NCBI RefSeq assembly: GCF_040183065.1
Contig: NC_091122.1
Span: 77,298,955 to 77,362,954 of the forward strand
Length of the DNA stretch: 64,000 nt
Reading direction: 5' to 3'
Origin: Periplaneta americana
Lineage: Eukaryota > Arthropoda > Insecta > Blattodea > Blattidae
Below the pieces are notes generated by a model, which saw only the letters and a list, made by a program, of their open reading frames with translations, was not told the origin of the DNA and ran no database searches. Positions 23,079 to 64,000 of the stretch are shown here, one piece after another (the stretch's first letter is position 1; each line of letters opens with the position of its first letter). A program made the position numbers and the translations under genes.

Positions 23079-23132
23079 CTGTATCTAACTATACTAATAT
23101 AATGAGATCGGACTTTGAATGTATCTGACCAA

Positions 23133-23506: not shown

Positions 23507-23517
23507 GACATCAAGAG

Positions 23518-28800: not shown

Positions 28801-30534
28801 AAATCGAAATGAGTGATAAAATGCGGTCTCATTGTGAATATTAAACCCATTCAGAAGGAATTAGCACAATCGTTTGGAATTTGTAGTTTTTATTATTGTA
28901 TATACAAAAAAAACGCAATTCTAACTTGAGAAACGATGATTTTTCCATTTTAACGATTTACACTAAAAAACTCAGAGATCTTTCTGGACGCGAACATGAA
29001 TCATTTAATAGAAATACTTGTGTCCACACGAATTTGACATTTTTTGAAAAAACTAGAGAAATCGGACGGGATTTGTAGATATTATTCATAATTATATAGC
29101 TTAAAATTTCGCAAAAAAAAAACAAATTTTAGAGAAATTTTGTGGTTATGGAAAATCGAGACGAGTCATAAAAACGGTCTCGTTGTGAAAGTTAAACCCA
29201 TTCAGAAAGAATTAGCACAATCGGTTGCAATTTGTACTTTTAATAACGTATATACAAAAAACCGCATTTCTAGCTCGAGAAACGACGATTTTTCCACTTA
29301 AACGATTTACACTATCAAACCCATATCTTTCTGGACGCGAACATGAATCTTTGGATAAAATAGGTATGTGCTCACGAATTTGACATTTTTTGGAGAAACT
29401 AGAGGAATCCGATGGGATTTGTAGATTTTATTCATAATTATATAGCTTAAAATCTCGCAATAAAACAAATTTTTAGAGAAATTTTGTATTAGGGGAAAAT
29501 CGAAACGAGTGATAAAAAGCGGTCACGTTGTGAATGTTAAACCCATTCAGAAGGAATTACCACTATCGTTTGGTTTTTGTAGGTTTTATTAGTGTATTAC
29601 TAAAAAACGCATTTCCAGCACGAGAAACGAAGATTTTTCCACTTTAACGTTTTACACTAACAAATTCATATCATTCTTGACTCGAACATTAATCTTTGTT
29701 TAGAAGTAGGTGTGTCCACACGAATTTGATATTTTTTTAAGAAACTAGAGAAATCCGATGGGATTTGCAGCTTTTATTCATAATTATAGAGCTTAAAATC
29801 TCGCAAAAAGACAAATATTTAGAGAAAATTTATATGAGTTAAAAATCGAAACGAGTGATAAAAAGCGGTCTCATTGTGAATGTTTAACCCATTCAGAAAG
29901 AATTAGCACAATCGTTTGGAATTTGTAGGTTTTATTAATGTATATAAGATAAAACGCATTTCTGACTCGAGAAACGACGAATTTTCCACTAACAAAGTCA
30001 TATCTTTCTCGAGGCGAACATGACTCTTTGGATAGAAATAGGTGTGTCCACACGAATTTGACATTTTTTGAAGAAACTAGAGAAATCCGACGGGATTTGT
30101 AGATATTATTCATAATTATATAGCTTAAACTCTCGCAAAAAAAAACAAATTTTTAGAGAAATTTTGTATGAGTGGAAAATCGAGACGAGTGATAAAAACG
30201 GTCTCGTTGTGAATGTTAAACCCATTCAGAAGGAATTAGCACAATCGCTTGGAATTTGTAGGTTTTATTAATGTATATACAAAAAAAACGCATTTCAAAC
30301 TCGAGAAACGACGATTTTTCCACTGTAACGATTTACACTAACAAACTCATATCTTTCTGGCCGCGAGCATGAATCTTTGGATAGAAATAGGTGTGCCCAA
30401 ACGAATTTGACATTTTTTTTAAGAAACTAGAGAAATCCGCTGTGATTTGTAGGTTTTATTCATAATTATGTAGTTTAAAATCTCGCAAAATATCAAATTT
30501 TTAGAGAAATTTTGTATGAATGGAAAATCGAAAC
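25881..30534. repeat. 345-bp satellite array, block 5
   Basis: About 13 monomers. From about 29110 to the end, this block is nearly identical to 61672-63097. Confidence 0.96.
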
Positions 30535-30663
30535 AGTAGATAAGAAATGATGCTTACGTCACAGGTGTAAGTTAGGTGTTAGGGGGCGTGGGAAGTGACG
30601 TCATTGTGGGCGTGGCCAAAGTATTACATCAGAAGTGGGCGGGGCCAAAGTATGGCGTCATGG
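30535..30663 (+). repeat. Left terminal inverted repeat of the 4.9-kb element
   Basis: It carries TGACGTCA once plus related TTACATCA and TGGCGTCAT words, alternating with GGGCGTGGCC and GGGCGGGGCC. Relative to the right arm and to the copy at 63098, it lacks 8 bp in the GGTGTAAG repeat. Confidence 0.9.
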
Positions 30664-30809
30664 GATGAATTTAATCTGGGTAATAATGTATGGCTTAAAT
30701 TAATTACACTAATATTTATTTTGATGTACCGAAGTACATATGATATTTCCATGCAGATATTCTGCTTTCTCAGATGATGAGAGAGAGATGGAAAGGAGAA
30801 AAATTCTCT

Positions 30810-30878
30810 CCGGCGCCGGGATTTGAACCCGGGTTTTCAGCTCTCCGTGCTGGTGCTTTAACCACTAAGCCACGCCGG
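30810..30878 (-). other. tRNA-like head of the left SINE arm
   Basis: This 69-nt tRNA-like sequence has ends CCGGCG and CGCCGG that pair as an acceptor stem, an A box (TGGCTTAGTGG), a B box (GGTTCAAATCC) and a CCGGG/CCCGG T-arm. The CAGC/GCTG anticodon stem holds a loop reading ACGGAGA, without the U33 of functional tRNAs. It is a Pol III promoter relic, not a tRNA gene. Confidence 0.85.
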
Positions 30879-30932
30879 ATACAATCCCGACACCGTTGAG
30901 AATCGTCTCTGATTAAGCTCCATCTCTTGGGT

Positions 30933-30944
30933 TCCCTCTAGTGG
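30933..30944 (-). promoter_or_regulatory. CTCF-core-like motif, left SINE arm
   Basis: The minus strand reads CCACTAGAGGGA, 11 of 12 positions of the conserved CTCF core CCAsyAGrkGGC. The match is from sequence only; binding is not shown. Confidence 0.3.
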
Positions 30945-31359
30945 CCGCCCTCTGCACTACGTTATAGATGTCTATGCACGCAGGACCGAAGTCCATACAT
31001 GTGTAGAGGTGCACTCAGATGAGTGACTGGTTGGCCGGGGTCCGACGGTATGCGCGCCGTCTTTAAATCACAAAGTGATTTATTACGCATATCATATTTA
31101 TTTTGATGTACCGAAGTACATATGATATTTCCATCTCTCTCTCATCATCTGAGAAAGCAGAATATCTGCATGGAAATATCATATGTACTTCGGTACATCA
31201 AAATAAATATGATATGCGTAATAAATCACTTTGTGATTTAAAGACGGCGCCCATACCGTCGGACCCCGGCCAACCAGTCACTCATCTGAGTGCACCTCTA
31301 CACATGTATGGACTTCGGTCCTGCGTGCATAGACATCTATAACGTAGTGCAGAGGGCGG

Positions 31360-31371
31360 CCACTAGAGGGA
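31360..31371 (+). promoter_or_regulatory. CTCF-core-like motif, right SINE arm
   Basis: CCACTAGAGGGA on the plus strand, divergent to the left-arm copy. Confidence 0.3.
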
Positions 31372-31425
31372 ACCCAAGAGATGGAGCTTAATCAGAGACG
31401 ATTCTCAACGGTGTCGGGATTGTAT

Positions 31426-31494
31426 CCGGCGTGGCTTAGTGGTTAAAGCATCATCACGGAGAGCTGAAAACCCGGGTTCAAATCCCGGCACCGG
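31426..31494 (+). other. tRNA-like head of the right SINE arm
   Basis: Same structure as the left arm, on the opposite strand. A box at 31432-31442 and B box at 31475-31485 are intact. The anticodon stem differs (CATCATCACGG), so it has diverged from the left arm and no longer pairs well. About 45 bp further, the unit ends in CTCTCTCATCAT. Confidence 0.85.
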
Positions 31495-33430
31495 AGAGAA
31501 TTTTTCTCCGTTCCATCTCTCTCTCATCATAAATACACTAAACAATCCACTCAAAATGTATTACTTCTTCAATTTTGGTGAAAACATTATCACAATTGGG
31601 ATTCACTAACTGAAAATATATTTCAATACTCAGTGCATTGTATTTCTTTTTATGAATAAATATATACGCATAATTTTACGTTGTTACTATTTTCTTTTAC
31701 CAAGCACATCCCCATCCTCAATGACTAGATTCAGTTTAATCATTGACATTCCCTCAATCATCCTCAGGTTTTATCATACAATCATGTAATGAATCCACCA
31801 CTCCCAAATCAATAAGCTACCACTGGAATTATGTTATATTCTGGTAACATATATGTTTAGAATAATCTCAACTTATACACCAATTCTTAAGGATTATTAA
31901 TATTTGAAAACCTATATACCAATTCTTAATATTGGAAAAGGATTTCTAATATTTGAAAGGAAAGTGTTATAGGTTAATTCTCTAAACGAACCCAACCCTT
32001 TGGTTATGTGGGATGGAAATGGATGGTTAAGACATAGAAGAAATTACAGTGCAAATCTATTTCCAAAAAGAACATTTATTACAATTCGAACATTCTTCAT
32101 AATCAAGCTTAACATTCACCACGCTTCATCATGGTCACTGTTTTTTACACTCAGAGCATTTAAATTGTGCGATTTCTTCTTCTTCAGCTCAAACCGAGAC
32201 TGGAGATGCAGCATCATCTAAATTAAAATTAAAAATAAATATTGTGAGACATTATTAACGCTATGGCTGCTATTACGCTACCAAATTTTTTTGACATAGA
32301 TCTTTTATAAAATATGTAATAGTGTAATAGTTGTGTAAATTCGAGCGTATTATTCATCATCTTGCCCCCCCTCCCACTGCTGTCTAAACTTGTTCAATGT
32401 CAATTATTCCAAACTGCAATACTTCTTTCATTACACTTCTAAATAATTCACCTCATCATCCAGCCATATTACCTCCAAGGTCATTATAAAAAACATGTTT
32501 TTTATCATTACTCAGTAATTTCATCGTCGGATGTGACATTGCATAATATTTGCACACATAGCAGATAGCTATTATTTACTTGTAATCAATACAATATTTG
32601 TGTAACATAAGACGCTGAGAGAACAATCGCCGGATGTTTGCATCATGCAATATTTGTGTAATATAACACGTTCCAGATGCTTCAGAAACATATTTTTATC
32701 ATTACTCAGCAATTGCATCGTCGCCGGAAGTGATTCAGCAAGCTTGCATAATATTTGCACACTTATACATATGTAATAACATATACATCTACATTGATTT
32801 ATCTGCTACAATTACTGCTCTAAATCATAATAATGTCACATTCTGATGAATTTAATGTTGGTAATAATGTATTAAATACGCTAAACAAACTACTCAATTT
32901 TACTTCAAAATGTATTACATTGGAATAATAATAATATGAGAAGAATGTATGTGTTTAATTTACAAGTGTGCTAGATTAATTTTTTTATCAATTGGCTTAA
33001 AGTACAACCATTTACGCCATCAATAATTCCCCCATTCCAATTTCAATTAACACTTGCGAATTTCCCTTACCCATTACTATTTATCAAATAAATTACTATT
33101 ACATTAGAATTTTATCACATTCCCCCCCCCCATTTCCAACTTCAATTACAAATTTATAACATCACACTTTAAGTTATGACGTATGTATTTCAAATTATAA
33201 ACAGCCATCACCCATTTCCAACTTCAATTACAAATTTATAACGTCACACTTTAATCTTCTTTATGACGAATAATAATAATAATGAGAAGAAGAAGAAGCA
33301 ATTGCTATATTACGAACAGCTTCGGTAATAATGTATGGCATAAAATAAATCCAATAAATGTTACTTCAAAGTGTATTAAATTATTAATCAATCCAATAAA
33401 TGTTACTTCAAAATGTATTAAATTGGAACC

Positions 33431-33482
<52 letters not shown>
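33431..33482. repeat. (TAA)n microsatellite
   Basis: About 17 uninterrupted ATA/TAA trinucleotides, inside the 4.9-kb element between the first and second long repeats. Confidence 0.97.
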
Positions 33483-33485
33483 GGT

Positions 33486-34595
33486 GGCCATTATTCAGCA
33501 CTTGCGTCTTCACCGGATGTGAATTAACAGCTTGCATATTATTAGCATCATGCAATATTTGTGTAATATGACACGTTGCAGATGCTTCAAAAACATGCTT
33601 TTATCATTACTCAGCAATTGCATCGTCGCCGGAAGTGATTAAGCAAGCTTGCATAATATTTGCACGCTTCAACATATACATCTACATTGATTTATCTGCC
33701 ACAATTACTGCTCTAAATCATAATAATGTCACATTCTGATGAATTTAATGTTGGTAATGATGTATTAAATACGCTAAACAAACCACTCAAAATGTATTAC
33801 TTTGGAATAATATGAGAAGAATGTATGTGTTTAATTTACAAGTGTGCTAGATTAATTTTTTTTATAAATTGGCTTAAAGTACAACCATTTACACCATCAA
33901 TAATTCCCGCATTCCAATTTCCATTTCCCATTACTATTTATCAATTCAATTACCAGTACATTAGAATCTTAATATTTTTTATCAATTACTCAACAATTGG
34001 CTTAAAGTACAACCAGTTTCAGGACATCCATTGGACAGCTGGCCATTATTCAGCACTTGCGTCTTCACCGGATGTGAATTAACAGCTTGCATATTATTTG
34101 CATCATGCAATATTTGTGTAATATGACACGTTGCAGGTGCTTAAAAAACATGCTTTTATCATTACTCAGCAATTGCATCGTCGCCGGAAGTGATTCAGCA
34201 AGCTTGCATAATATTTGCACACTTATGCATTACACAACATATACATCTACGTTGATTTATCTGCTACAATTACTGTATTACGAAATAATAATGTCACATT
34301 CTGAATGTTGGTAATAATGTATTAAATACGCTAAACAAACCACTCAAAATGTATTACACTAGAATAATGTGAGAAGAAAGTATATGTTTAATTTACAAGT
34401 GTGCTAGATTATTTTTTTTTATAAATTGGCTTAAAGTACAACCATTTACGCCATCAATAATTCCCCCATTCCAATTTCCATTTCCCATTACTATTTATCA
34501 ATTCAATTACCAGTACATTAGAATCTTAATATTTTTTATCAATTACTCAGCAATTGGCTTAAAGTACAACCAATAAAATTAGCAACCTTGCATAA
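33486..34595. repeat. Two tandem 555-bp units inside the 4.9-kb element
   Basis: Starts at 33486 and 34041 (GGCCATTATTCAGCACTTGC). Both run through CACCGGATGTGAATTAACAG and a TCAATTGGCTTAAAG-type end. A third, partial, more diverged unit lies at about 32620-33010. Confidence 0.8.
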
Positions 34596-35199
34596 TATTT
34601 GCACACATAGCAGATAGTGATTATTTTAACATTCACAACTCACTTTCAAAAATACAAACATGTATCAACTTGTCTATTCCCCCTCCCCACTATACAAACT
34701 TGCATGAACATGTGCATTTCAAATTATTACATTTCCAACTTCAATTAAAAATTTATGACGCCACACTTTAAGTTATGCCGTTCGTATTTCAAATTTTTAC
34801 CCCCCCCTCCCCCATTTCCAACTTCAATTACAAATTTATAACGTCACTTCAGCCACATCCTGTTTAATTTACAAGTGTGCTAGATTAATTTTTTATCCAT
34901 TTATGTCCCACATTCCAACACCCATTCCCCAATCAATTAAATTACCATTACATTAGAATCTTAAGAAAAAGAATGTATGTGTTTATGTGTGATAGATTAA
35001 TTCTTCGCCGGATGTGACCTTGCATAATATTTGCACACATAGCAGTTTTCAAACATGTATGAACTTGTGTCTTTCACCTGAGAACAATTGCCGGATATGA
35101 CTCAGCATTATATTTGCACACATAGCAACATTGATGAGATAAACATGTATGAACTTGTCATACCACAACTTCAATTACATACCTGCATGACGTCACACT

Positions 35200-35385
35200 T
35201 TAACCTTGAACGCTTATGACGTAATTTAAGTTACGCCCCATTCCTACGTCATACTTTAAGCCCGCCACCCCCTCCGTGCTGTCATACTTTAAGCCCCGCC
35301 CCCTTCATGACGCCATACTTTGGCCCCGCCCACTTCTGACGTAATACTTTGGCCACGCCCACAATGACGTCACTTGCCACGCCCC
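35200..35385. repeat. ~36-bp tandem repeats at the right end of the 4.9-kb element
   Basis: Four to five degenerate units carry TGACGTmATACTTTrrGCC followed by a CGCCC-rich half. The outermost are part of the inverted repeat. They place ATF/CREB-type TGACGTCA half-sites next to GC-box-like CCGCCC words. Confidence 0.75.
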
Positions 35386-35441
35386 CTAACACCTAGCTTA
35401 CATCCTTACACCTGTGACGTAAGCATTATTTCTTATCTACT
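35305..35441 (-). repeat. Right terminal inverted repeat of the 4.9-kb element
   Basis: The reverse complement matches the left arm base for base over long stretches and keeps the double GTGTAAG/ATGTAAG motif missing from the left arm. Confidence 0.9.
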
Positions 35442-38400
35442 AAAAAACGACTGATAAAAAGCGGTCACATTGTGAATGATAAACCCATTCTGAAAGAATT
35501 AGCACAATCGGTTGGAATTTGCAGCTTTTATTAATGTCTATACGGAAAAATGCATTTCTAGCTCGAGAAACGACGATTTTTCCACTTTAACCATTTACAC
35601 TAACAAACTTAGACATTTCTGGACGCCAACATGAATCTTTGGATAGAAATACGTGTGTCCAAACGAATTTGACACTTTTTAAGAAACTAGAGAAATCCGA
35701 TGGGATTTGTAGATTTTATTTTTGATTATATAGCTTAAAATCACGCAAAGAAATAAATTTTTAGAGAAATTTTGTATGAGTGGAAAAAAGAAACGAGTGA
35801 TAAAATGTGGTCTCATTGTGAATGTTAAACACATTCAGAAGGAATTAGCACAATCGCTTGGAATTTGTAGGTTTTATTAATGTCAACAAATTATTAGAGA
35901 TATTTTGTATTAATTGAAAATCGAAACGAGTGATAAAAAGCGGTCTCATTGAGAATGTTAAACCCATTCTGGAAGAATTACTACAATCGGTTGCAATTTG
36001 CAGGGTTTATTAAAGTATTTACGCAATAACGCATTTCTAGCTCGAGAAACGACGATTTTTCCACTTTAACGATTTACACTAAAAAACTCATATCTTTCTT
36101 GAAGCGAACATCAATCTTTGTATAGAAATATGTCTATCCACATGAATTTTACATTTTTTTAAGAAACTAGAGAAATCCGATGGGATTTGTAGATTTTATT
36201 CTTAATTATATAGCTTTAAATCTCTCAAAAAGACAAATATTTAGAGAAATTTTGTATGAGTAGAAAATCGAAACGAGTGATAACAAGCGGTCTCATTGTG
36301 AATGTTCAACCCATTCTGGAAAGAAGTAGCACAATCGTTTGGAATTTGTAGGTTTTATTAATGTATATACGAAAAAACGCATTTCTAGCTCGAGAAACGA
36401 TGATTTTTCGACTCTGACAATTTACACTAACAAACTCACCTCTCTCTGGACGTGAACATGAATCTTTAGATAGAAATAGCTGTGTCCACACCAATTTGAC
36501 ATTTTTTTAAGAAACTAGAGAAATCGGATAGTATTTGCAGATATTACTCATGATTATATAGAGTAAATCTTCGCGAAAACCAAAGTATAAGAGAAATTTG
36601 TCTGAGTGGAAAATCGAAACGAGTGATAAAATGCCGTCTCATTTTGAATGTTAAAGCCATTCAGAAAGAATTAGCACAATCGGTTGGAATTTGTAGCTTC
36701 TATTAATGTATATACGAAAAAACGCTTTTCAAGCTCGAGAAACGACGAATTTCCACTTTAACAATTAACACTAATATACTCACCTTTCTCTGGACGCAAA
36801 CATGAATCTTTGGATAGAAATACGTGCGTCCACAGCAATTTGACATTTTTTTAAGAAACTAGAGAATTCGGATAGGATTTGTAGATTTATTCATGATTAA
36901 ATACCTTAAAATCTCGCAAAAACCCAAGTATAAGGGAAATTTAGTCCCAGTGCAAAATCGAAACGAATGATAGAATGTGGTCTCATTGTGAATGTTAAAC
37001 CCATTCAGAAGGAATTAACACAATCGTTTGGAATTTGTAGGTTTTATTATTATATATACTAAAAAACGCATATCTAACTCGAGAAACAAAGATTTTTCCA
37101 CTTTAACAATTTACACTAACAATCTCACATCTCTCTGGACGTGGACATGAAACTTTGGATAGAAATACGTGTGTCCACACGAATTTGACATTTTTTTAAG
37201 TAACTACAGAAATCGGAGGGGATTTGTAGATTTTATTCATAATTATATAGCTTAAAACCTCGCATAGAAACAAATTTTTAGAGAAATTTCATATGAGTGG
37301 AAAATCGAAACCAGTGATAAAAAGCGGTCTCATTGTGAATGTTAAACCCACTGAGAAAGAATTAGCACAATCGGTTGGAATTTGTAGGTTTTATTAATGT
37401 ATATACGAAAAAAACGCATTTCTAGCTCGAGAAACGACGATTTTTCCACTTTCGCGATTTACACTAACAAACTCATATCTTTCTGGACGCGAACATGAAT
37501 CTTTGGATAGAAATCGCTGTGTCCACACAAATTTGACATTTTTTGAAGAAGCTACAGATATCCGGTGGGATTTGTAAATTTTATTCTTAATTATATAGCT
37601 TAAAATCTCGCAAAAAAATCAAATTTTTAGAGAAATTTTATATGAGTGGAAAATCGAAACGAGTGATAAAAAGGGGTCTCATTGTGAAAGTTAATCCCAT
37701 TCAGAAAGAATTAGCACAATCGCTTGGAATTTGTACCCTTTATTAATATATATACGAAAAAACGCATTTCTAGCTCGAGAAACGACGATTTTTTCCACTT
37801 TGACTATTTACACTAACAAATTCACCTCTCTCTGGACATGAACATGAATCTTTGGATAGTAAGAAGTGTGCCCAAAAGATTATGACATTTTTTTTAAGAA
37901 ACTAGAGAAATCAGCTGGGATTTGTATAACTTAATCATACTTATATAGCTTAAAATCTCGCAAAAAAGAACAAATTTTTAGAGAAATTTTGTGTGAGTGG
38001 AAAATCAAAAACGAGTGATAAAATGAGGTCTCATTGTGAATGTTAACCCCATCCAGAAGGAATTAGCACAATAATATGGAATTTGAAGGTTTTATTAATG
38101 TATATAGAAAAAAACGCATTTCTAGCTCGACAAAACGACGATTTATCCACTTCGAAAATTTACACTAACAAACTCACCTCTCTCTGGACGCGAACATGAT
38201 TCTTTGGATAGAAATACGTGTGTCCACAAGAATGTGAAATATTTTAAAAACTAGAGTAATAGGATGGCATTTGTAGGTTTTATTCATGATTATATAGCTT
38301 AAAATCTCCCAAAAACCAAAGTTTAAAAAATTTTGTCATAGTGCAAAATTCAACCGAGTGATAAAATGCGGTCTCTTTGTGAATGTTAATCCCTTTCAGA

Positions 38401-38654
38401 AAGAATTAGCACAATCGGTTGGAATTTGCAGGTTTTATTAATGTACATACAAAAAACGCATTTCTAGCTCGAGAAACGACGATTTTTTCACTTTAATCAT
38501 TTACACTAACAAACACAGCTCTTTCTGGATGCTAACCTGAATCTTTTGGATAGAAATACGTGTGTCCACACGAATTTGATATTTTTTTAAGAAACTAGAG
38601 AAATCCGCTGGGATTTGTAGATTTTATTCATAATTATATAGTTTAAAATCTCGC

Positions 38655-38677
38655 AAAAAAAAAAAAAAAAAAAAAAA
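38655..38677. repeat. Expanded A-run in a satellite monomer
   Basis: 23 A residues directly after CTCGC, the same monomer position as the run at 6022. Equivalent 23-base runs lie at 44943-44965 and 50521-50543. Confidence 0.9.
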
Positions 38678-40521
38678 CAAAAAATTAGTGTTAATTTGTA
38701 TGAGTGGAAAATCGAAACGTGTGATAAAATGTGGTCTCAATGTGAATGTTAAAGCCATTCAGAAGGAATTAGCACAATCGTTTGGAATTTGTAGGTTTTA
38801 ATAATGTATATACAAAACAACGCATTTCTACCTCCACAAACGGCGATTTTTCCACTTTAACGATTTACACTAACAAACTCAGAACATTCTAGACGCGAAC
38901 ATGAAACTTTGGATAGAAATAGGTGTGTCCACACGAATTTGACATTTTTTGAAGAAACTAGAGAAATCCGACGGGATTTGCAGATATTATTCATAATTAT
39001 ATAGCTTAAAAACTTGCCAAAAAACAAATTTTTAGAGAAATTTTGAATGAGTGGAAAATCGAGACGAGTGATAAAAAGCGGTCACATTGTGAATGTTAAA
39101 CCCATTCAGAAAGAATTAGCACAATCGGTTGCAATTTGTACTTTTATTAATGTATATACGAAAAAACGCAATTCTAGCTCGAGAAACGAAGATTTTTCCA
39201 CTTTAACGATTTAAACTAACAAACTCATATCTGACTTGAGGCGAACATACATTTTTGTATAGAAATAGGTGTGTCCACACGAATTTGACATTTTTTTAAA
39301 AAACTAGAGATATCCGATGCGATTTGCAGATTTTATTTTTGATTATATAGCTTAAAATCTCGCAAAAAAACAAATATTTAGAGAAATTTTGTATGAGTGG
39401 AAAATCGAGACGAGTCATAAAAAGCGGTCACTTTGTTAATGTTAAACCCATTCGGAAAGAATTAGCACAAGCGGTTGCAATTTGTGATTTTATTAATGTA
39501 TATGCGAAAAAAACGCAATTCTAGCTCGAGAAACGACGATTTTTCCACTCTAACGAATTACACTAACAAACACACCACTTTCTGGACGTGAACATCAATC
39601 CTTCGATAGAAATACGTGTTTCCACACGAATGTGACATTTTTTTTTTAAATCTAGAGAAATCGGATGGGATTTGTAGATTTTTCATGATTATATAGATAA
39701 AAATCTCGCAAAAACCAAATTTTTAGAGAAATTTTGCCAGAGTGGAAAATCCAAACCAGTGATAAAAAGCGATCTCATTGTGAATGTTAAACCCATTTAG
39801 AAAGAATTAGCGCAATCTCTTGGAATTTGTATGTTTTGTTAATCTATATACGAAAAAACGCATTTCTAGCTCGAGAATCGACGATTTTTCAACTTTAACG
39901 ATTTACACTAACAAACTCATATCTTTCTGGACACGAACATGAATCTTTGGAGAGAATTAGATGTGACTTCACGAATTTGACATTTTTTGAAGAAACTAGA
40001 GTAATCCGATGGGATTTGTAGAAATTATTCATAATTATATAGCTTAAAATCTCGCAAAAAACAAAGTATAAGAGAAATTTAGTCTGAGTAGAAAATCGAA
40101 ACGAGTGATAAAATGCGGTCTCATTGTGAATGTTAAACCCATTCAGAAGGAATTAGCACAATACTTTGGCATTTGTACGTTTTATGAATGTATATACAAA
40201 AAAAACCCAATTCTCACTCGAGAAACGACGATATTTCCAATTTCACGAATACACTAACAAACACACCTCTTTGTGGACGTGAACATCAATCTTTGGATAG
40301 AAATACGTGTTTCCACACGAATTTGACATTTTTTAAAGAAACTAGAGAAATCGGATTGGATTTGTAGATTTTATTCATGGTTATATAGCTTAAAATCTCA
40401 CAAATAAAAAATTCTCAGACTAATTTTGTCTGAGTGGAAAATCGAAACCAGTGATAAAAAGCGGTCTCATTGTGAATGTTAAACCCATTCAGAAAGAATT
40501 AGCACAATCTGATGGAATTTG

Positions 40522-40603
40522 TATGTTTTGTTAATCTATATACGAAAATACGCATTTCTATCTATGTTTTGTTAATCTATATACGAAAAAACGCATTTCT
40601 ATC
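40522..40603. repeat. 41-bp direct duplication within a monomer
   Basis: TATGTTTTGTTAATCTATAT and the following 21 bases occur at 40522 and again at 40563 with one base changed. Only this monomer shows it. Confidence 0.9.
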
Positions 40604-49600: not shown

Positions 49601-52600
49601 GTTTTGTTGATGTATATACGAAAAAACCCATTTCTAGCTAGAGAATCGACGATTTTTTCACTTTAACCATTTACACTAAGAAACTCATATCTTTCTGGAC
49701 GCCAACATGAACCTTTGGATAGTAATAGGTATGTCCACACGAATTTGACATTTTTTTTAAGAAACTAGTGAAATCCGCTGGGATTTGTAGATTTTATTCA
49801 TAATTAAATAGCTTAAATTCTCGCAAAAAACAATTTATTAGAGAAACTTTGTATGAGTGGAAAATCGAAACGAGTGATAAAAAGCGGTCTCATTGTGAAT
49901 GTTAAACCCATTCAGAAAGAATTAGCACAATCGTTTGGAATTTGTAGGTTTCATTAATGTATATACGAAAAAACGCATTTCTAGCTCGAGAAACAACGAT
50001 TTTTCCACTTTGGCGAATTACACTAACAAACTCATTTCTTTCCTGAAGCCAACATGATCCTTTGGATAGAAACAGGTGTGTCCACACGAATTTGACATTT
50101 TTTGAAGAAACTAGAGAAATCCGATGGGATTTGTAGATTTTATTCATAATTAAATAGCTTAAAATCTCGGAAAAAAAAAACAAATATTTAGAGAAATTTT
50201 GTATGAGTGGAAAATCGAAACGAGTGATGAAAAGCGGTCTCATTGTGAATGTTATACGCATTCAGAAATAATTAGCACAATCGGTTGGAATTTGTACGTT
50301 TTATTAATGTATATATGAAAAAACGCATTTCTAGCTCGAGAAACGACAATATTTCCACTTTGACCATTTACACTACCAAACTCAAATCTCTCTGGACACG
50401 AACATTAATCTTTGGATAGTAAATACGTGTGTCCTCACGAATGTGATTTTCTTTAAGAAACTAGAGAAATCGGATGGGATTTGTAGATTTTATTCATGAT
50501 ATTATAGCTTAAAATCTCGCAAAAAAAAAAAAAAAAAAAAAAACAAATTTTTAGAGAAGTTTGTATGAGTGGAAAAGCGAAACGAGTGATAAAAAGCTGT
50601 CCCTTTGTGAATGTTAAACCCATTCAGAAAGAATTACCAGAGTCGGTTGGAATTTGTAGGTTTTGTTGATGTATATACGAAAAAAAGCATTTCTAGCTCG
50701 AGAATCGCCGATTTTTTCACTTTAACGATTTAACACTAACAAACTCATATCTTTCTGGTCGCCAACATCAATCTTTGGACAGTAATAGTTGTGTCCACAC
50801 GAATTTGACATTTTTTGAAGAAACTAGGGAAATCCGATGGGATTTGAAGATTTTATTCATGATTATATAGCTTAAAATCTCGCAAAAAATAAAAAATTTA
50901 GAGAAATTTTTTATGAGTGGAAAATAGAAACGAGTGATAAAAAGCGGTCTCATTGCGAATGTTAAACCCATTCAGCAAGAATTATCACAATCGGGTGGAG
51001 TTTGAAGCTTTTATTAATATATATACGAAAAAACGTTTTTCTAGCTCGAGGAACGACAATTTTACCACTTTGTCCATTTACACGAACATACTCACCTCTC
51101 TCTGGACGCGAACATGAAACTTTGGATAGAAATACGTGTGTCCACACGAATTTGACGTTTTTTTAAGAAACTAGAGAAATCGGATGGGATTTGTAAATTT
51201 TATTTATGTTTATATAGCTTAAATTCTCGCAAAACCCAAAGTTTAAAAGAAATTTTGTCTAAGTGGAAAATCGAAACTAGTGATAAAATGTAGTCTCATT
51301 GTAAATGTTAAACCCATTCAGAAAGAATTAGCACAATGGGTTTGAATTTGTAGGTTTTATTAATGCACATACGAAAAAACGCATTTCTAGCTCGAGAAAC
51401 GACGATTTTTCCACTTTAGCGATTTACACTAACAAACTGATATCTTTCTGGACGTCAACATGAACATTTGGATAGAAAAAGGTGTGTCCACACGAATTTG
51501 ACATTTTTTGGAGAAACTAGAGAAATCCGATGGGATTTGTAGATTTTATTCTTAATTATATAGCTTAAAATCTCGCAAAAAAAACATAAATTTAGAGAAT
51601 TTTGTATGAGTGGAAAATCAAAACGAGTGATAAAATGTGGTTTCATTGTGAATGTTAAACCCATTCAGCAGGAATTAGCACAAGTGTTTGGCATTTGTAG
51701 GTTTTATGAATGTATATACAAAAAAAATCATTTCTAGCTCGAGATACGACGATTTTTCCACTTTAACGAATTACACTAACAAACACACCTCTTTCTGTAC
51801 GCGAACATCAATCTTTGGATAGTAATACGTGTGGCCACACGAATGTGACTTTTTTTAAGAAACTAGAGAAATCGGATGCGATTTGTAGATTTTATTCATG
51901 ATTATATAGCTTAAAATCTCGCAAAAAAAACAAATTTTTAGAGAAATTTTGTATGAGTGGAAAATCGAAAAGAGTGATAAAAAGCTGTCTCATTGTGAAT
52001 GTTAAACCCATTCAGTAAGAATTAGCACAAGCGGTTGGAATTTGTAGGTTTTATTAATGTATATACGAAAAAAAAATTTTCTAGCTAGAGAAACGACGAT
52101 TTTTCCACTTTAGCGATTTACACTAACAAACTCATATCTTTCTGGACGCGAACATGAATCTTTGGATAGAAATCGGTGTGTCCACACGAATTTGACATTT
52201 TTTTTAAGAAACTAGAGAAATTCGCTGGGATTTGTAGATTTTATTCATGTTTATATAGCTTAAAATCTCGGAAAATAACAAATTATTAGAGAAATTTTGT
52301 ATGAGTGGAAAATCGAAACGAGTGATAAAAAGCGGTCTCATTGTGAATGTTAAACCGATTCAGAAAAAATTGTTACAATCGGGTGGAATTTGTAGCTTTT
52401 ATTAATGTATATACGAAAAAACGCATTTCTAGCTCGAGAAACGACGATTTTTCCACTTCGACCATTTATACTAACAAATTCACCTCTCTCTGCACGTGAA
52501 CATGAATCTTTGGATAGTGATAGGTGTGCCCACTCGAATTTGACATTTTTTTAAGAAACTAGAGTATTCGGATGGGATTTGTAGGTTTTTATTCATGTTT

Positions 52601-55600
52601 ACATAGCTTAAAATCTCGCAAACACCAAAGTTTAAGTGAAATTTTGTCAGAGTGGAAAATCGAAACGAGTGATAAAATATAGTCTCATTGTGAATTTTAA
52701 ACCCATTCAGAAAGAATTAGCACAATCGTTTTGAATTTGTAGGTTTTATTAAACTATATAAGAAAAAACGCATTTCTAGCTCGACAAAAGACGATTTTTC
52801 CACTTTAACCATTTACACTAACAAACTCATATCTTTCTGGACGCGAACATGAATCTTTGCATAGAAATAAGTGTGTTCACACGAAATAGATATTTTTTTA
52901 AGAAACTAGAGAAATCGGCTGGAATTTGTAGATTTTATTCATAATTATATAGCTTAAAATCTCGCAAAATAACAAATTATTAGAGATATTTTGTATGAGT
53001 GGAAAATCGAAACGAGTGATAAAAAGCGGTCTCATTGTGAATGTTAAACCCATTCAGAAAGCATTAGCACAATAGTTTGGATTTTGTAGTTTTATTAATG
53101 TATATATGAAAAAACGCATTTCTAGCCCGAGAAACGACGATTTTTCCACTTTAGCGATTTACACTAACAAACTGATATCTTTCTGGACGTCAACATGAAC
53201 ATTTGGATAGAAAAAGGTGTGTCCACACGAATTTGACATTTTTTGAAGAAACTAGAGAAATCCGATGGGATTGGTAGATTTTATTCATAATTATATAGCT
53301 TAAAATCTCGCAAAAAAAAAATCGAATATTTAGAGAAATTTTGTATGATTGGAAAATCGAAACGAGTGATGAAAAGCGTTCTCATTATGAATGTTATACG
53401 CATTGAGAAAGAATTTAACACAATTGGTTGGAATTTGTACGTTTTATTAATATATATATGAAAAAACGCATTTCTAGATCGAGAAACGACAATTTTTCCA
53501 CTTTGACAATTTACACTACCGAACTCACCTCTCTCTGGACGCGAACATTAATCTTTGGATAGTAATACTTGTGTCCGCACGAATGTGACTTTCTTTAAGA
53601 AACTAGAGAAATCGGATGGGATTTGTAGATTTTATTCATGATTATATAGCTTAATATCTCGCAAAAAAGAAAAAAACAAATTTTTAGAGAAGTTTGTATG
53701 AGTGGAAAAGCGAAACGAGTGATAAAAAGCTGTCCCATTGTGAATGTTAAACCCAATCAGGAAGAATTAGCACAAGCGGTTGGAATTTGTAGGTTTTATT
53801 AATGTATATACGAAAAAAACGCATTTCTAGCTCGAGAAACGACGATTTTTCCACTTTGACCATTTACACTAACAAAATCCTCTCTCTCTCTGGACGTGAA
53901 CATGATTCTTTGTATAGTGATAGGTGTGCCACACGAATTTGTCATTTTATTTAGGAAACTAGAGAATTCGGATGGGATTTGTAGGTTTTTATTCATGATT
54001 AAATAGCTTAAAATCTCGCAAAAACCAAAGAATAAGGGCAATTTAGTCTGAGAGGAAAATCGAAACGTGTGATAAAATGCGGTCTCTTTGTGAACTTTAA
54101 ACCCATTCAGAAGTAATTTGCACAATCGTTTGCAATTTGTATGTTTTATAATTGTATATACAAAAAAACGCATTTCTAATTAAGAAACGACGGTTTTTCC
54201 ACTTTAACGATTTACTCTAAAAATCTCAGAACTTTCTGGACGCGAACATGAATCTTTTAAAAGAAATACGTGTGTCCACAAGAATTTGACATTTTTTTAA
54301 TAAATTAGAGAAATCCGATGGGATTTGTAGATTTTATTTTTCATTATATAGCTTAAAACTCGCAAAGAACAAATTTTTAGAGAAATTTTGTATGAGTGGA
54401 AAATCGAAACGAGTGATAAAATGTGGTCTCTTTGTGAATGTTAAACCCATTCAGCAGGAATTAGCACAAGAATTTGGCATTTGTAGGTTTTATGAATGTA
54501 TATACAAAAAAAAATCATTTCTAGCTCGAGAAACCACGATTTTTCCACTTTAACGAATTACACTAACAAACACACCTCTTTCTGTACGCGAACATCAATC
54601 TTTGGATAGTAATACGTGTGACCACACGAATGTGACTTTTTTTAAGAAACTGGAGAATTCGGATGGGATTTGTAGATTTTATTCATGATTATATAGCTTA
54701 AAATCTCGCAAAAAAACAAATTTTTAGAGAAATTTAGTATGAGTGGAAAGTCGAAACGAGTGATAAAAAGCTGTCTCATTGTGAATGTTAAACCCATTCA
54801 GAAAGAATTAGCACAAGCGGTTGGAATTTGTAGGTTTTATTAATGTATATACGAAAAAACGCATTTCTAGCTCGAGAATCGACGATTTTTCCACTTTAGC
54901 GATTCACACTAACAAACTCATATCATTCTGGACGCCAACATGAACCTTTGGATAGAAATAGGTGTGTCCACACGAATTTGACATTTTTTTAAGAAACTAG
55001 AGAAATCCGCTGGGATTTGTAAATTTTATTCATAATTATATAGCTTAAAATCTTGCAAAAAAACAAATTATTAGAGAAACGTAATATGAGTGGAATATCG
55101 AAACGAGTGATAAAAAGCGGTCTCATTTTGAAAGTTAAACCCATTCAGAAAGAATTAGCACAATCGGTTGGAATTTGTAGGTTTTATTAATATAGATACG
55201 AAAATACGCGTTTCCAGATCGAGAAACGACGATTTTTCCACTTTAACCATTTACACTAACTTACTCACCTCTCTCTGGACGTGAACAAGAATCTTTGGAT
55301 AGAAATACGTGTGTATACACGAATTTGTCATTTTTTTAAGATACTAGATAAATCGGATGGGATTTGTAGATTCTATTCATGATTATATAGCTTAAAATCT
55401 CGCAAAATCCAAAGTTTAAGTGAAATTTTGTCAGAGTGGAAAATCGAAACGAGGGATAAAATGCGGTCTCATTGTGAATGTTAAAATCATTCAGAAAGAA
55501 TTAGCACAATCCGTTGGAATTTGTTGGTTTTATTAATGTATATACGAAAAAACGCATTTCTAGCTCGAGAAACGACGATTTTTCCACTTTGTCCATTTAC

Positions 55601-56084
55601 ACGAACATACTCACCTCTCCTGGACGCGAACATGAATCTTTGAACAGAAATTCGTGTGCACACGAATTTGACATTTTTTGAAGGATCTAGAGAAATCGGA
55701 TGGCATTTGTAGATTATATTCATGATAATATAGCTTAAAATCTCGCAAAAACCAAAGTATAAGAGAAATTTTGTCTGAGTGGCAAATCGAAACGAGTCAT
55801 AAAATGCGGTCTCATTGTGAATGTTAAAACCATTTAGAAAGAATTAGCACAATCGGTTGGAATTTGTAGGTTCTATTAATGTAGGGTAAACTGTATAGTG
55901 ATTGACCACTTAAGCTAATGAATAATAAAACAATGTAATAGCGGAAGACGGTGGTAATTTATTGAGAGAATTTTAAAGGCATTGGTTCAAGTGAAGATTC
56001 AGAAACAAATCTAAATCAATAAACAAAAGAAAAAATAAAATTTTAATGCAAACATAAATTAAATAAACTCAACAAGTCCACTTT

Positions 56085-56235
56085 TACAGTTATTGACCGT
56101 CTACTGCACAGTTATTGACCACACGCTTATTAGTGATTGACCGTCTACTGCACACTTATTGACCACACGCTTATTTGTGATTGACCGTCTACTGCACAGT
56201 TATTGAATACTCATTTACTAGTGATTGAACAACAC
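56085..56235. repeat. Subterminal 44-bp repeats of the pogo-like element
   Basis: The word ATTGACCGTCTACTGCACA recurs at about 56093, 56137 and 56181 (period 44 bp), alternating with TTATTGACCACACGCTTATT. Single AGTGATTGACCAC copies occur at about 55896 and 57030, and a reverse copy sits in the right terminus. Transposase binding is a reasonable inference. Confidence 0.85.
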
Positions 56236-56895
56236 ATTTTCACAATTTTCACTTTTTTCTTGTCTGTTTCGTTTCTCTTCTTCTGATCTTTCTCATTAAG
56301 AACTATTCGCCACCGGCGTAGCTCTGTCGGCAAAGGTGTCTGCCTGCCGATCCGAAGTTTCGTTCGGGCGCGGGTTCAATTCCAGCTTGGGCTGATTACC
56401 TGGTTGGGTTTTTCCGAGGTTTTGCCCAACCGTAAGGCAAATTTCAGGTAATCTATGACGAATCCTCGGCCTCATCTCGCCAAATACCATCTCGCTACCA
56501 TCAATCCCATCGACGCTAAATAACCTCATAGTTGATACAGTGTCGTTAAATAACCAAGTTAAAAAATAAGAAAAGAACTCTTCTCGCTGCCTTTTCTTTC
56601 ATTTCTTATTCGCTTCCTTCCTTCTCTTGCCTCTTCTTCCATTTTTCTCTTTTGTGCCTTATCAGAAGCAAGTGTGTGTCATTTCTCTGATGTTATTACA
56701 AATGGCTTCACCCAGCACTGGACGGGGACCAAAGAACACTTTTCCTTCAACGGGATATTTGCTTCTGGACGCTAAGGTTGCTTTTAGGACACCAAACTAC
56801 TTGGCAGCTTCATTTAAATCAAATCCACTGTCGACAGGTTCTGTAGCGTTTCATAAAGCTTCCCCTGTATAATGCACTTTACATGGCTTAGGCAT
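56211..56895 (-). pseudogene. pogo-like transposase remnant: N-terminal psq helix-turn-helix and basic C-terminus
   Basis: On the minus strand, ATG at 56895-56893 starts MPKPCKVHYTGEAL. After an in-frame TGA it continues NATEPVDSGFDLNEAAK, a TAG stop and FGVLKATLASR, then FFGPRPVLGEAICNNIREM. This is the Psq-type DNA-binding domain of pogo/Tigger transposases (EAAKxFGVPKxTL pattern). About ten residues later a +1 frame change leads into a Lys/Arg/Glu-rich tail (QKRKMEEEAREGRKRIR). That tail resumes beyond the nested SINE as NEKDQKKRNETDKKKVK and stops at 56213-56211. The DDE catalytic domain expected between the two parts, some 300 codons, is absent. Function is impossible. Family assignment rests on the helix-turn-helix and the TA target. 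Confidence 0.8.
56305..56572 (+). mobile_element. tRNA-derived SINE nested in the pogo-like element
   Basis: A 268-bp SINE lies between 7-bp direct repeats AAGAACT (56298-56304 and 56573-56579). The tRNA-like head has an A box (TAGCTCTGTCGG, 56319-56330) and a B box (GGTTCAATTCC, 56373-56383). The body contains GGTTGGGTTTTTCCGAGG, its inverted partner TTTTGCCCAACC and the segment ATCCTCGGCCTCATCTCGCC. The 3' end is GTCGTTAAATAACC followed by an A-rich tail. The sharp target duplication and intact promoter boxes suggest a fairly recent insertion. Confidence 0.92.
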
Positions 56896-57434
56896 TATAA
56901 TATAGTATCAGTCCTGTAAAAATCCCCATCATTTAACCGATAACATATATAGAATTGGAGCAAATTGGTCATTACTCTAACAAATAATTTATGAACGACC
57001 AATCAATGTAGTTTGCGGCCATTCACTTTATAGTGATTGACCACGGGGCATGTTATGTCATATAAAAACTTTAACAAAATAATATTCTGTGCACGGAAAC
57101 CTTATACCTTTTCTCACACTGTGAGTGTAAAAACGAGCACCAGAATTTATGAATCCTTTGCAGAATAAATAAATTATTGCGTGCATTATTCTTAGCAATT
57201 TCTATAGTTATTTACACTTGTTTACATTCAGTTGCATTTCCAATCGATTTCAGAACTCTCAGACAACAGACACTAACTCAGTGGGATGAACAGCGACAAC
57301 TAACCACAAATAAGGGTTGCAACTAGAGATATATGCAGCAAAAAGTGAAATCACGATCGTGGTTTATTCACAATATACTTGAAAAAAAAACCGGACAGTC
57401 ACAGTATACTGGTCAATAACTACCTAGTTTACCC

Positions 57435-60400
57435 TATATACGAAAAAACGCGTTTCTAGCTCGAGAAACGACGACTTTTCCACTTTAACCATTTACACTA
57501 ACAAACTCATATCTTTCTGGACGCCAACATGAACCTTTGGATAGAAATACGTGTCTCCACACGAATTTGACATTTTTTTTAACATACTAGAGCAATCAGA
57601 TGGGATTTGTAGATTTTATTCACGATTATATAGCTTAAAATCTCGCAAAAACCAAAGTTTAAGAGAAATTTTGTCTGAGTGGAAAATCGAAACGAGTGAT
57701 TAAATGCGGTCTCATTGTGAATGTTAAACCCATTCAGAAAGAATTAGCTCAATCGGTTGGAATTTGTAGCTTGTATTAATGTATATACGAAAAAACGCAT
57801 TTCTAGCTCGAGCAACGACTATTTTTTCACTTTGACTCTTTACACTTACACACTCACCTCCCTCTGGACGTGAACATGAATCTTTGAATAGAAATACGTG
57901 TGTCCACACGAATTTGACACTTTTTTAAGAAACTAGAGAAATCGGATGGGATTTGTAGATTTTATTCATGATTAAATAGCTTAAAATCTCGCAAAAACCA
58001 AAGTAAAAGACAAATTTAGTCAGAGTGGAAAATCGAAACGAGTGATAAAATGCGGTCTCATTGTGAACGTTAAACCCATTCAGAAGGAATTCGCACAATC
58101 GTTTCGAATTTGTAGGTTTTATTATTGTATATACAAAAAACGCATTTCTAACTCGAGAAAAGACGATTTTTTTCACTTTTACTCTAACAAACTCAGAACT
58201 TTCTGGACGCGAATATTATTCCTTTAAAAGAAATGCGTGTGTCCTCAAGAATTTGACATTTTTTTAATAAACTAGAGAAATCCGATGGGATTTGTAGATT
58301 TTATTTTTGATTACATAGCTTAAAACCTCGCAAAGAGACAAATTTTTAGAGAAATTTAGTATGAGTGGAAACTCGAAACGAGTGATAAAATGTGGTCTCA
58401 TTGTGAATGTTAAACCCATTCAGAAGGAATTAGCACAAGAGTTTGGCATTTGTAGGTTTTATGAATGTATATACAAAAAAATCATTTCTAGCTCGAGAAA
58501 CAACGATTTTTCCACTTTAACGAATTACCACTAACAAACACACGTCTTTCTGGGCGCGAACATCAATCTTTGGATAGAAATACGTGTTTCCACACGAATT
58601 TGACATTTTTTTTACGAAACTAGAGTAATCGGACGGGATTTGTAGATTTTATTCATGTTTATATTGCTGAAAATCTCTCAAAAACCAAATATTTAGAGAA
58701 ATTTTGTCTGAGTGGAATATCGAAAACAGTGATAAGAAGCAGTCTCATTGTGAATCTTAAAACCAATCAGAAAGAATTAGCGCAATCGGTTGGAATTTGT
58801 AGGTTTTGTTGATGTATATACAAAATACGCATTTCTAACACGAGAATCGACGATTTTACCACTTTAACGATTAACACTAAGAAACTCATATCTTTCTGGA
58901 CGCCAATATGAATCTTTGGATAGAAATAGGTGTGTCCACACGAATTTGACATTTTTTTTAAGAAACTAGAGAAATCCGATGGGATTTGTAGATTTTATTC
59001 ATAATTATATAGCATAAAATCTCGCAAAAAAAAAAAATTTTTAGAGAAATTTTGTATTAGTGGAAAATCGAAACGAGCGATAAAAAGTGGTCTCATTTAC
59101 ACTAACATTCTCACCTCTCTCTGGACGTGAACAAGAATCTTTGGATAGAAATACGTGTGTATACACGAATTTGTCATTTTTTTAAGATACTAGATAAATC
59201 GGATGGGATTTGTAGATTCTATTCATGATTATATAGCTTAAAATCTCGCAAAAAAACAAATTTTTAGAGAAATTTTGTATTAGTGGAAAATCGAAACGAG
59301 CGATGAAAAGCGGTCTCATTTTGAATGTTAAACGCATTCAGAAAGAATATAACACAATCGGTTGGAATGTGTAGGTTTTATTAATGTAAATATGATAAAC
59401 CGCATTTCTAGCACGAGAAACGACGATTTTTCCACTTTGACAATTTACACTTCCAAACTCACCTCTCTCTGGACGCGAACATTAATCTTTGGATAGAAAT
59501 ACGTGTGTCCACACGAATTTGACATTTTTTTAAGAAACTAGAGAAATCGGATGGGATTTGTAGATTTTATTCATGTTTATATAGCTTAAAATCTCGCAAA
59601 AACCAAAGTTTAAAAGAAATTTTGTCAGAGTGGAAAATCTAAACGAGTGATTAAATTTAGTCTCATTGTAAATATTAAACCCATTCCGAAACAATTAGCA
59701 CAATCGGTTGGAATTTGAAGCTTTTATTAATGTATATACGAAAAAACGCATTTCTAGCTCGAGAAACGACAATTTTTCCACTTTAGCGATTTACACTAAC
59801 AAACTCATATCTTTCTGGACGCCAACATGAACCTTTGGATAGAAATAGGTGTGTCCACACGAATTTGACATTTTTTGAAAAAACTAGAGAATTCGGATGG
59901 GATTTGTAGGTTTTTATTCATGATTAAATAGCTTAAAATCTCGCAAAAACCAAAGAATAAGGGAAATTTAGTCAGAGAGGAAAATCGAAACGAGTGATAA
60001 AATGCGGTCTCATTGTGAACGTTAAACCCATTCAGAAGTAATTAGCACAATCGTTTGGAATTTGCAGGTTTTATTATTGTATACACAAAAAACCGCATTT
60101 CTAACTCGAGAAACGACGATTTTTCCACTTTAACGATTTACTCTAACAAACTCAGAACTTTCTGGAAGCGAACATGAATCTTTTAAAAGAAATACGTGTG
60201 TCCACAAGAATTTGACATTATTTTAATAAACTAATGAAATCCGATGGGATTTGTAGATTTTATTTTTCATTATATAGCTTAAAACTCGCATAGAAACAAA
60301 TTTTAGAGCAATTTTGTATGAGTGGAAAATCGAAACGAGTAATAAAATGTAGTCTCATTATGAATGTTAAACCCATTCATCAGGAATTAGCACAAGAGTT

Positions 60401-63097
60401 TGGCATTTGTAGGTTTTATGAATGTATATACATAATACACCATTTCTAGCTCGAGAAACGACGATTTTTCCACTGTAACGAATTACACTAACAAACACAC
60501 CTCTTTCTGGACGCGAACATCAATCTTTGGATAGAAATACGTGTTTCCACACGAATGTGACGTTTTTTTAAGAAACTAGAGTAATCGGACGGGATTTGTA
60601 GATTTTATTCATGATTATAGTGCTGAAAATCTCTGAAAAACCAAATTTTTAGAGAAATTTTGTCTGAGTGGAAAATCGAAACCAGTGATAAAAAACAGTC
60701 TCATTGTGAATGTTAAACCCATTCAATGAGAATTAGCAGAGTCGGTTGGAATTTGTAGGTTTTGTTGATGTATATACGAAAAAACGCATTTCTAGCTCGA
60801 GAATCGACGATTTTTTCACTTTAACGATTTACACTAACAAACTCATATCTTTCTGGACGCCAACATGAACCTTTGGATAGTAATAGGTGTGTCCACACGA
60901 ATTTGACATTTTTTGAGGAAACTAGAGAAATCCGATGGGATTTGAAGATTTTATTCATGATTATATAGCTTAAAATCTCGCAAAAAATAAAAAATTTAGA
61001 GAAATTTTGTATGAGTGGAAAATCGAAACGAGTGATAAAAAGCGGTCTCATTGCGAATGTTAAACCCATTCAGCAAGAATTAGCACAATCGGGTGGAATT
61101 TGTAGCTTTTATTAATATATATACGAGAAAACGCATTTCTAGCTCGAGAAACGACAATTTTACCACTTTGTCCATTTACACGAACATACTCACCTCTTTC
61201 TGGAAGCGAACATGAAACTTTGCATAGAAATACGTGTGTCCACACGAATTTGACATTTTTTTAAGAAACTAGAGAAATCGGATGGGATTTGTAAATTTTA
61301 TTCATGTTTATATAGCTTAAAATCTCGCAAAAACCAAAGTTTAGAAGAAATTTTGTCTGAGTGGAAAATCGAAACGAGTGATAAAATGTAGTCTAATTGT
61401 GAATGTTAAACCCATTCAGAAATAATTAGCACAATCGGTTGGAATTTGTAGATTTTATTAATGTATATACGAAAAAACGCATTTCTAGCTCGAGAATCGA
61501 CGATTTTTCCACTTTAGCGATTTACACTAACAAACTCATATCATTCTGGACGCCAACATGAATCTTTGGATAGAAATAGGTGTGTCCACACGAATTTGAC
61601 ATTTTTTTAAGAAACTAGAGAAATCCACTGGGATTTGTAGATTTTATTCATAATTATATAGCTTAAAATCTCGCAAAAAAAAAAACAAATTTTAGAGAAA
61701 TTTTGTGGTTATGGAAAATCGAGACGAGTCATAAAAACGGTCTCGTTGTGAAAGTTAAACCCATTCAGAAAGAATTAGCACAATCGGTTGCAATTTGTAC
61801 TTTTAATAACGTATATACAAAAAACCGCATTTCTAGCTCGAGAAACGACGATTTTTCCACTTAAACGATTTACACTATCAAACCCATATCTTTCTGGACG
61901 CGAACATGAATCCTTGGATAAAATAGGTATGTGCTCACGAATTTGACATTTTTTGGAGAAACTAGAGGAATCCGATGGGATTTGTAGATTTCATTCATAA
62001 TTATATAGCTTAAAATCTCGCAATAAAACAAATTTTTAGAGAAATTTTGTATTAGGGGAAAATCGAAACGAGTGATAAAAAGCGGTCACGTTGTGAATGT
62101 TAAACCCATTCAGAAGGAATTACCACTATCGTTTGGTTTTTGTAGGTTTTATTAGTGTATTACTAAAAAACGCATTTCCAGCACGAGAAACGAAGATTTT
62201 TCCACTTTAACGTTTTACACTAACAAATTCATATCATTCTTGACTCGAACATTAATCTTTGTTTAGAAGTAGGTGTGTCCACACGAATTTGATATTTTTT
62301 TAAGAAACTAGAGAAATCCGATGGGATTTGCAGCTTTTATTCATAATTATAGAGCTTAAAATCTCGCAAAAAGACAAATATTTAGAGAAAATTTATATGA
62401 GTTAAAAATCGAAACGAGTGATAAAAAGCGGTCTCATTGTGAATGTTTAACCCATTCAGAAAGAATTAGCACAATCGTTTGGAATTTGTAGGTTTTATTA
62501 ATGTATATAAGATAAAACGCATTTCTGACTCGAGAAACGACGAATTTTCCACTAACAAAGTCATATCTTTCTCGAGGCGAACATGACTCTTTGGATAGAA
62601 ATAGGTGTGTCCACACGAATTTGACATTTTTTGAAGAAACTAGAGAAATCCGACGGGATTTGTAGATATTATTCATAATTATATAGCTTAAACTCTCGCA
62701 AAAAAAAACAAATTTTTAGAGAAATTTTTTATGAGTGGAAAATCGAGACGAGTGATAAAAACGGTCTCGTTGTGAATGTTAAACCCATTCAGAAGGATTT
62801 AGCACAATCGCTTGGAATTTGTAGGTTTTATTAATGTATATACAAAAAAAACGCATTTCAAACTCGAGAAACGACGATTTTTCCACTGTAACGATTTACA
62901 CTAACAAACTCATATCTTTCTGGCCGCGAGCATGAATCTTTGGATAGAAATAGGTGTGCCCAAACGTATTTGACATTTTTTTTAAGAAACTAGAGAAATC
63001 CGCTGTGATTTGTAGGTTTTATTCATAATTATGTAGTTTAAAATCTCGCAAAATATCAAATTTTTAGAGAAATTTTGTATGAATGGAAAATCGAAAC
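57435..63097. repeat. 345-bp satellite array, block 7
   Basis: About 16 monomers. 60730-61520 closely resembles 50630-51420 (offset about 10.1 kb, including the pogo-like insertion). 59100-59240 repeats the rare series at 55256-55390 (ACAAGAATCTTTGG, GTGTATACACG). One shortened unit has its junction near 59095. From about 61672 it is the second copy of the 29.11-kb duplication. Confidence 0.96.
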
Positions 63098-64000
63098 AGT
63101 AGATAAGAAATGATGCTTACGTCACAGGTGTAAGGGTGTAAGTTAGGTGTTAGGGAGCGTGGGAAGTGACGTCATTGTGGGCGTGGCCAAAGTATTACAT
63201 CAGAAGTGGGCGGGGCCAAAGTATGGCGTCATGGGATGAATTTAATCTGGGTAATAATGTATGGCTTAAATTAAATACACTAATATTTATTTTGATGTAC
63301 CGAAGTACATATGATATTTCCATGCAGATATTCTGCTTTCTCAGATGATGAGAGAGAGATGGAAAGGAGAAAAATTCTCTCCGGCGCCGGGATTTGAACC
63401 CGGGTTTTCAGCTCTCCGTGCTGGTGCTTTAACCACTAAGCCACGCCGGATACAATCCCGACACCGTTGAGAATCGTCTCTGATTAAGCTCCATCTCTTG
63501 GGTTCCCTCTAGTGGCCGCCCTCTGCACTACGTTATAGATGTCTATGCACGCAGGACCGAAGTCCATACATGTGTAGAGGTGCACTCAGATGAGTGACTG
63601 GTTGGCCGGGGTCCGACGGTATGCGCGCCGTCTTTAAATCACAAAGTGATTTATTACGCATATCATATTTATTTTGATGTACCGAAGTACATATGATATT
63701 TCCATCTCTCTCTCATCATCTGAGAAAGCAGAATATCTGCATGGAAATATCATATGTACTTCGGTACATCAAAATAAATATGATATGCGTAATAAATCAC
63801 TTTGTGATTTAAAGACGGCGCCCATGCCGTCGGACCCCGGCCAACCAGTCACTCATCTGAGTGCACCTCTACACATGTATGGACTTCGGTCCTGCGTGCA
63901 TAGACATCTATAACGTAGTGCAGAGGGCGGCCACTAGAGGGAACCCAAGAGATGGAGCTTAATCAGAGACGATTCTCAACGGTGTCGGGATTGTATCCGG
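63098..64000. mobile_element. Second copy of the 4.9-kb TIR element (left 0.9 kb only)
   Basis: Starts AGTAGATAAGAAAT after the same satellite context (GGAAAATCGAAAC) as the copy at 30535. Because flank and insertion point are shared, this copy arose by duplication rather than by independent transposition. It includes the left SINE arm and nearly all of the right arm, ending just inside the right tRNA-like head. Confidence 0.95.
63381..63449 (-). other. tRNA-like head of the left SINE arm, second copy
   Basis: Identical in visible sequence to 30810-30878, with intact A and B boxes. The matching right-arm head starts at the window edge and is cut off. Confidence 0.85.

Follow-up and report, generated by a model that had tools for sequence, protein, structure and literature searches.

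A 2.3-kb near-identical recurrence at 32.56-kb spacing in a 346-bp satellite array, consistent with a recent tandem duplication

The window analysed here, a stretch of 64,000 bases of Periplaneta americana DNA with no N, is made up for the most part of a 346-bp satellite family, for which a monomer search of the whole window gave 149 matches, all on the + strand. Pairwise identities were taken from the 136 near-full monomers (9180 pairs), with the 13 partial ones excluded, and have a mean of 84.8% and a standard deviation of 2.6%. As adjacent monomers are 85.0% identical, and so barely closer than distant ones, the array as a whole appears to have seen no recent homogenisation. Pattern scans of viral and genome contigs for a source or for relatives of the sequence returned no matches, though viral, bacterial and archaeal collections are unlikely to contain an animal satellite.

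Within this array one segment recurs nearly unchanged at a spacing of 32.56 kb, as had been predicted from the letters of the sequence, and we refer to the left and right occurrences as copy A and copy B (Table 1). Their global alignment has 2317 columns with 8 substitutions (0.35%), in keeping with the prediction of fewer than ten, and one 8-bp gap at copy A position 30564, opposite which copy B has the extra bases 63127–63134. The four duplicated monomer pairs are 99.1–100% identical and are the top four among all 9180; the best pair outside the duplication, which ranks fifth, reaches 96.5%. When the window was scanned without gaps at offsets 150 to 63699, asking for at least 288 matches in 300-bp windows, 7 offsets qualified, the two of the duplication with 1192 and 578 windows and the next best with 106. 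The identity of the duplication is far beyond that of the rest of the array. A BLAST self-comparison filtered at 95% did not show the direct repeat, which BLAST had merged with diverged satellite into a single alignment of 93%.

Table 1. Positions in the window of the recurring segment, of the features it contains and of an older block in the same array.
Feature	Positions	Strand	Description
Candidate duplicated unit	29113–61675	+	32,563 bp, if tandem; predicted extent, recurrence covers the first 2.3 kb
Copy A, comparable part	29113–31429	+	~4.1 satellite monomers and the first 895 bp of the element; from alignment with 61676–64000
Copy B, cut by the window end	61676–64000	+	From alignment; offset from copy A 32563 before the 8-bp indel, 32571 after it
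Left edge, copy A	29100–29122	+	Run of 10 A (29113–29122), from the sequence
Element of 4907 bp	30535–35441	+	Imperfect terminal inverted repeats 30535–30662 and 35306–35441
Start of the same element, copy B (903 bp)	63098–64000	+	Satellite left flank the same as in copy A
Palindrome	30774–31530	.	361-nt arms, 35-nt spacer, 5 arm mismatches
tRNA-Ser-like sequences, copy A palindrome arms	30808–30879; 31425–31496	-; +	
tRNA-Ser-like sequence, copy B palindrome	63379–63450	-	Partner would fall beyond the window end
Older tandem duplication	6741–17163	+	Monomers 6741–9493 vs 11331–17163, offset 8

The element that begins within the recurring segment has terminal inverted repeats that match at 91.9% (136 columns) and no clear target-site duplication in its flanks; all its open frames are shorter than 120 amino acids. 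Copy B contains 903 of its 4907 bp within the window, together with part of the palindrome. At the left junction between satellite and element 46 printed bases are identical in the two copies, and the 1.42 kb of satellite to the left of the junction is near-identical as well, so that a single insertion was copied. Two separate insertions of the element, each at an equivalent position in the satellite, were also considered and are ruled out by this near-identical flank. The original prediction had called the structure inside the element a SINE palindrome. The palindrome is present and carries a tRNA-Ser-like sequence in each arm; since the two tRNA-like sequences face outward, with most of each arm on their 5′ side, the name SINE stays unconfirmed.

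On its left side the duplication has a sharp edge. At 29113 the identity drops from ~100% to ~88%, and to the left of it, at the same offset, it ranges from 80 to 93.5% (19 bins of 100 bp, 27213–29112). The two monomer pairs that flank the edge are 88.4% and 89.0% identical, which ranks them high among all pairs (93rd and 96th percentile); this is no more than expected from how close they are to the consensus (residual z 0.4 and 0.2), so the edge is a real junction. Its counterpart in copy B lies at ~61662–61685 with a run of 11 A. The phase of the monomers is unbroken across both 29113 (28768–29114/29121–29460) and 61676 (61333–61676/61684–62023), so that the junctions are in register, as had been proposed. 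The same proposal placed both breakpoints just before the A-run; the A-run does mark the edge in each copy, but this is one left edge seen twice, and the right edge lies beyond the window. Given the sharp fall in identity and the phase kept in both copies, homologous recombination between satellite and satellite seems likelier than transposition or end-joining, and the unbroken phase is what an exchange at homologous sites of the satellite would leave behind.

What can be read directly from the window is the high identity of the two copies, their sharp left edge, the continuous monomer phase and the element junction that they share. The simplest account of these, and the best fit, is a recent two-copy tandem duplication of ~32.56 kb by unequal exchange in the satellite array, to which we give slightly better than an even chance. 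The inverted-repeat element and its palindrome would already have been inserted in the array before the duplication. Misaligned sister chromatids (or homologues) would then have recombined between one monomer near 29.11 kb and another near 61.68 kb, leaving an in-register tandem duplication of ~32.56 kb in two copies, each with ~75 monomers and two inserted elements, and the element and palindrome would have been carried along passively. The support includes the contrast between 8 substitutions in 2317 columns and a background divergence of ~15% between monomers. The duplication of the whole 32.56 kb, and unequal exchange as its route, are what we infer from this; of these 32.56 kb no more than 2.3 kb can be seen in both copies, and a shorter patch would look the same.

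Such a patch, a few kilobases long and no less than 2.3 kb, might have been moved from one part of the array to another by gene conversion or repair copying, and would involve no tandem unit of 32.56 kb. All the visible features agree with a tract whose end lies shortly beyond 64000, and conversion, too, would preserve the phase of the satellite on either side. We nevertheless consider it rather unlikely, as the tract would presumably have had to import the element into a recipient that did not have it, and as the one clear older block in the same array is a tandem duplication and not a displaced patch.

This older block joins 7 to 8 monomers, of 93.8% mean identity over 8, and is interrupted by insertions at 9494–11240 and 13400–16473. 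Seven of its pairs are at 93–95% and the eighth is at 89%, close to the 88.8% of the ninth, hence the range of 7 to 8. Of all the diagonal blocks it has the best score (0.476, compared to 0.436 for the recent duplication), whereas shuffling the monomer order gave at most 0.229 (1000 permutations, copy B excluded) and 0.245 (200 permutations, copy B included). Since the length of the block equals or nearly equals its offset, it is a tandem duplication, and one older than the recent duplication; the process therefore has a precedent here. Blocks at offsets 13 (0.233) and 21 (0.193) exceed the 95% level of both sets of permutations (0.179 and 0.168) and are borderline to, or inside, the maxima; the offset-32 block (0.170) exceeds only the lower 95% level, and a run at offset 5 (~91%, 0.138) is non-significant against the permutations.

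A tandem duplication of two copies is the smallest reading, and the original prediction went further, raising the possibility of a giant tandem unit. Counted in monomers, the 32,563-bp offset amounts to 71 near-full ones, or ~75 by length after removal of the element and of the insertion at 55.9–57.4 kb. When the four duplicated pairs are set aside, the 71-monomer diagonal has no excess identity (mean residual -0.0025, z -1.2; 61 pairs, all upstream), which rules out a periodicity of 71 monomers older than the event. Similarly, this duplication aside, nothing joins the upstream part to the supposed unit among the 25 best monomer pairs or among the 20 best diagonal blocks listed. A very recent duplication in register is supported, and the giant tandem unit fails on the left, where these 61 pairs give no preceding unit in 1–29112; if a tandem array exists, 29113 is for this reason at most its left end. 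That position could indeed be where an array begins, with the two copies as the first units of a 32.56-kb period that continues rightward, either as a higher-order repeat or through rolling-circle/eccDNA amplification. We think this very unlikely, as the same 61 pairs reveal no preceding unit in the 29 kb left of 29113, and give just as slim a chance to its more specific form, in which 29113 starts an array of 32.56-kb units, each of ~75 monomers with fixed transposable elements, that would be a young higher-order repeat near its origin.

The recurrence could also be an assembly artefact, in which two haplotypes of one locus were placed end to end, or in which the repeats induced a misjoin at 61676. 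The divergence of 0.35% is at the level of ordinary heterozygosity, reported as 0.22–0.95% in three tabulated species (PMC9516828), and the interior of a satellite would be a likely place for an assembler to err. The same report describes false heterotype duplications as the main kind in the older assemblies it studied, with false duplications amounting to 4 to 16% of the sequence in earlier assemblies of three vertebrates (PMC9516828). Gaps between the two members of a pair are listed there as a mark of false duplication (PMC9516828), whereas the window has no gap. A misjoin would moreover seem to require an overlap of monomers that are only ~88% alike. Plain long-read error is unlikely because the sole gap in the alignment is an indel of one 8-bp tandem unit and because all 8 interior homopolymers of at least 6 bases have the same length in both copies. 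We regard an artefact as a rather unlikely source of the pair.

The differences between the copies are unevenly distributed. Five of the differing sites lie in the satellite. There the copy A base is the common one of the family, present in 108 to 127 of the other 128 near-full monomers, and the base of copy B is rare, with 1 to 9 occurrences among the same 128. Two further sites, in the inverted repeat and in the palindrome arm, were compared with the partner sequence, and both indicate copy B as the changed copy. The outgroup for the eighth site, 30704, is no more than a weakly related sequence within the element, judged by eye, and it favours copy B as the unchanged one. Copy A seems to have lost the 8 bp of the indel, since the longer form is present in the right inverted repeat. 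The imbalance toward copy B is thus 7 to 0 (p 0.016) if only the seven more securely polarised substitutions are counted, 7 to 1 (p 0.07) with the eighth and 7 to 2 (p 0.18) with the indel as well, which, set against the even split expected of copies of equal age, seems a mild oddity. It might suggest that just one of the copies was made by an error-prone process, for instance break-induced replication, though the eighth site and the indel count against such a pattern; base errors in copy B, as part of an artefact, could yield the same lopsided changes.

If it is a tandem duplication, one of its closest parallels is the model of Smith, in which satellite arrays reportedly undergo unequal exchange between sister chromatids. 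As in that model, a block of monomers is duplicated in register, with the junction within a monomer and the phase kept; unlike in the model, the duplicated stretch would have the size of ~75 monomers by length, which is large, transposable elements lie within it, and the first part alone is seen twice. Elements inside satellites are also known to multiply in this way, for instance ATHILA in Arabidopsis, which was duplicated after its integration into satellite centromeres. The same is reported for CRM in Brachypodium (PMC10910784). The likeness lies in an element of a satellite array being copied by recombination of the array and not by transposition, here together with its satellite flank; the difference is that the present element has no long open frames, and that the array is known as a satellite and not as a centromere.

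A further comparison is with the higher-order repeats of alpha satellite, which, like the candidate unit of the present case, have many monomers per unit and a divergence between copies far below that between monomers. For the alpha-satellite 59mer, reported as the longest higher-order repeat of primates, these values are 0.1% between unit copies and 22.4% between monomers, and six canonical and two variant copies are described (PMC11276891). Here, in contrast, there is one partial recurrence, with no upstream unit. Were the longer array true after all, its unit would have more monomers than this longest reported primate repeat (PMC11276891). The event itself is an ordinary satellite process, notable only for its size and, by the standard of this window, its recency. 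If the whole 32.56 kb was duplicated, it would be a well-preserved recent example of satellite arrays growing by long steps with transposable elements aboard, and would bear on the size that exchanges in such arrays may have, leaving the known mechanism unchanged.

Several other insertions lie in the array. That at 9494–11240 looks like the remains of a Penelope-like element, a name we take from the pairing of reverse-transcriptase and GIY-YIG domains. The reverse-transcriptase frame (10405–11268, +, PF00078) overlaps the GIY-YIG frame (9742–10521, -, PF01541, barely over the cut-off) on the other strand, and thus the two parts are oppositely oriented. The remains of a retrotransposon at 13400–16473, with frames for reverse transcriptase and RNase H on the - strand, are probably of the non-LTR kind. 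Two more interruptions of the array lie at 21344–23532 and 25498–25881. The insertion at 55884–57434 has, by eye, short inverted ends (GGGTAAACT...AGTTTACCC) with TA on the flanks, and a tRNA-like SINE at ~56.31–56.56 kb, which resembles the SINEs of cockroaches and termites. ARAGORN and Rfam both returned no tRNA for this SINE-like stretch, and two short strings sought for it have 0 occurrences in the main text of PMC9191728. The same insertion contains 44-bp tandem repeats. Repetition is also found in the interior of the 4.9-kb element, where 32487–35130 is built from diverged internal repeats, for example 33482–34015 and 34037–34572, which are 92% identical.
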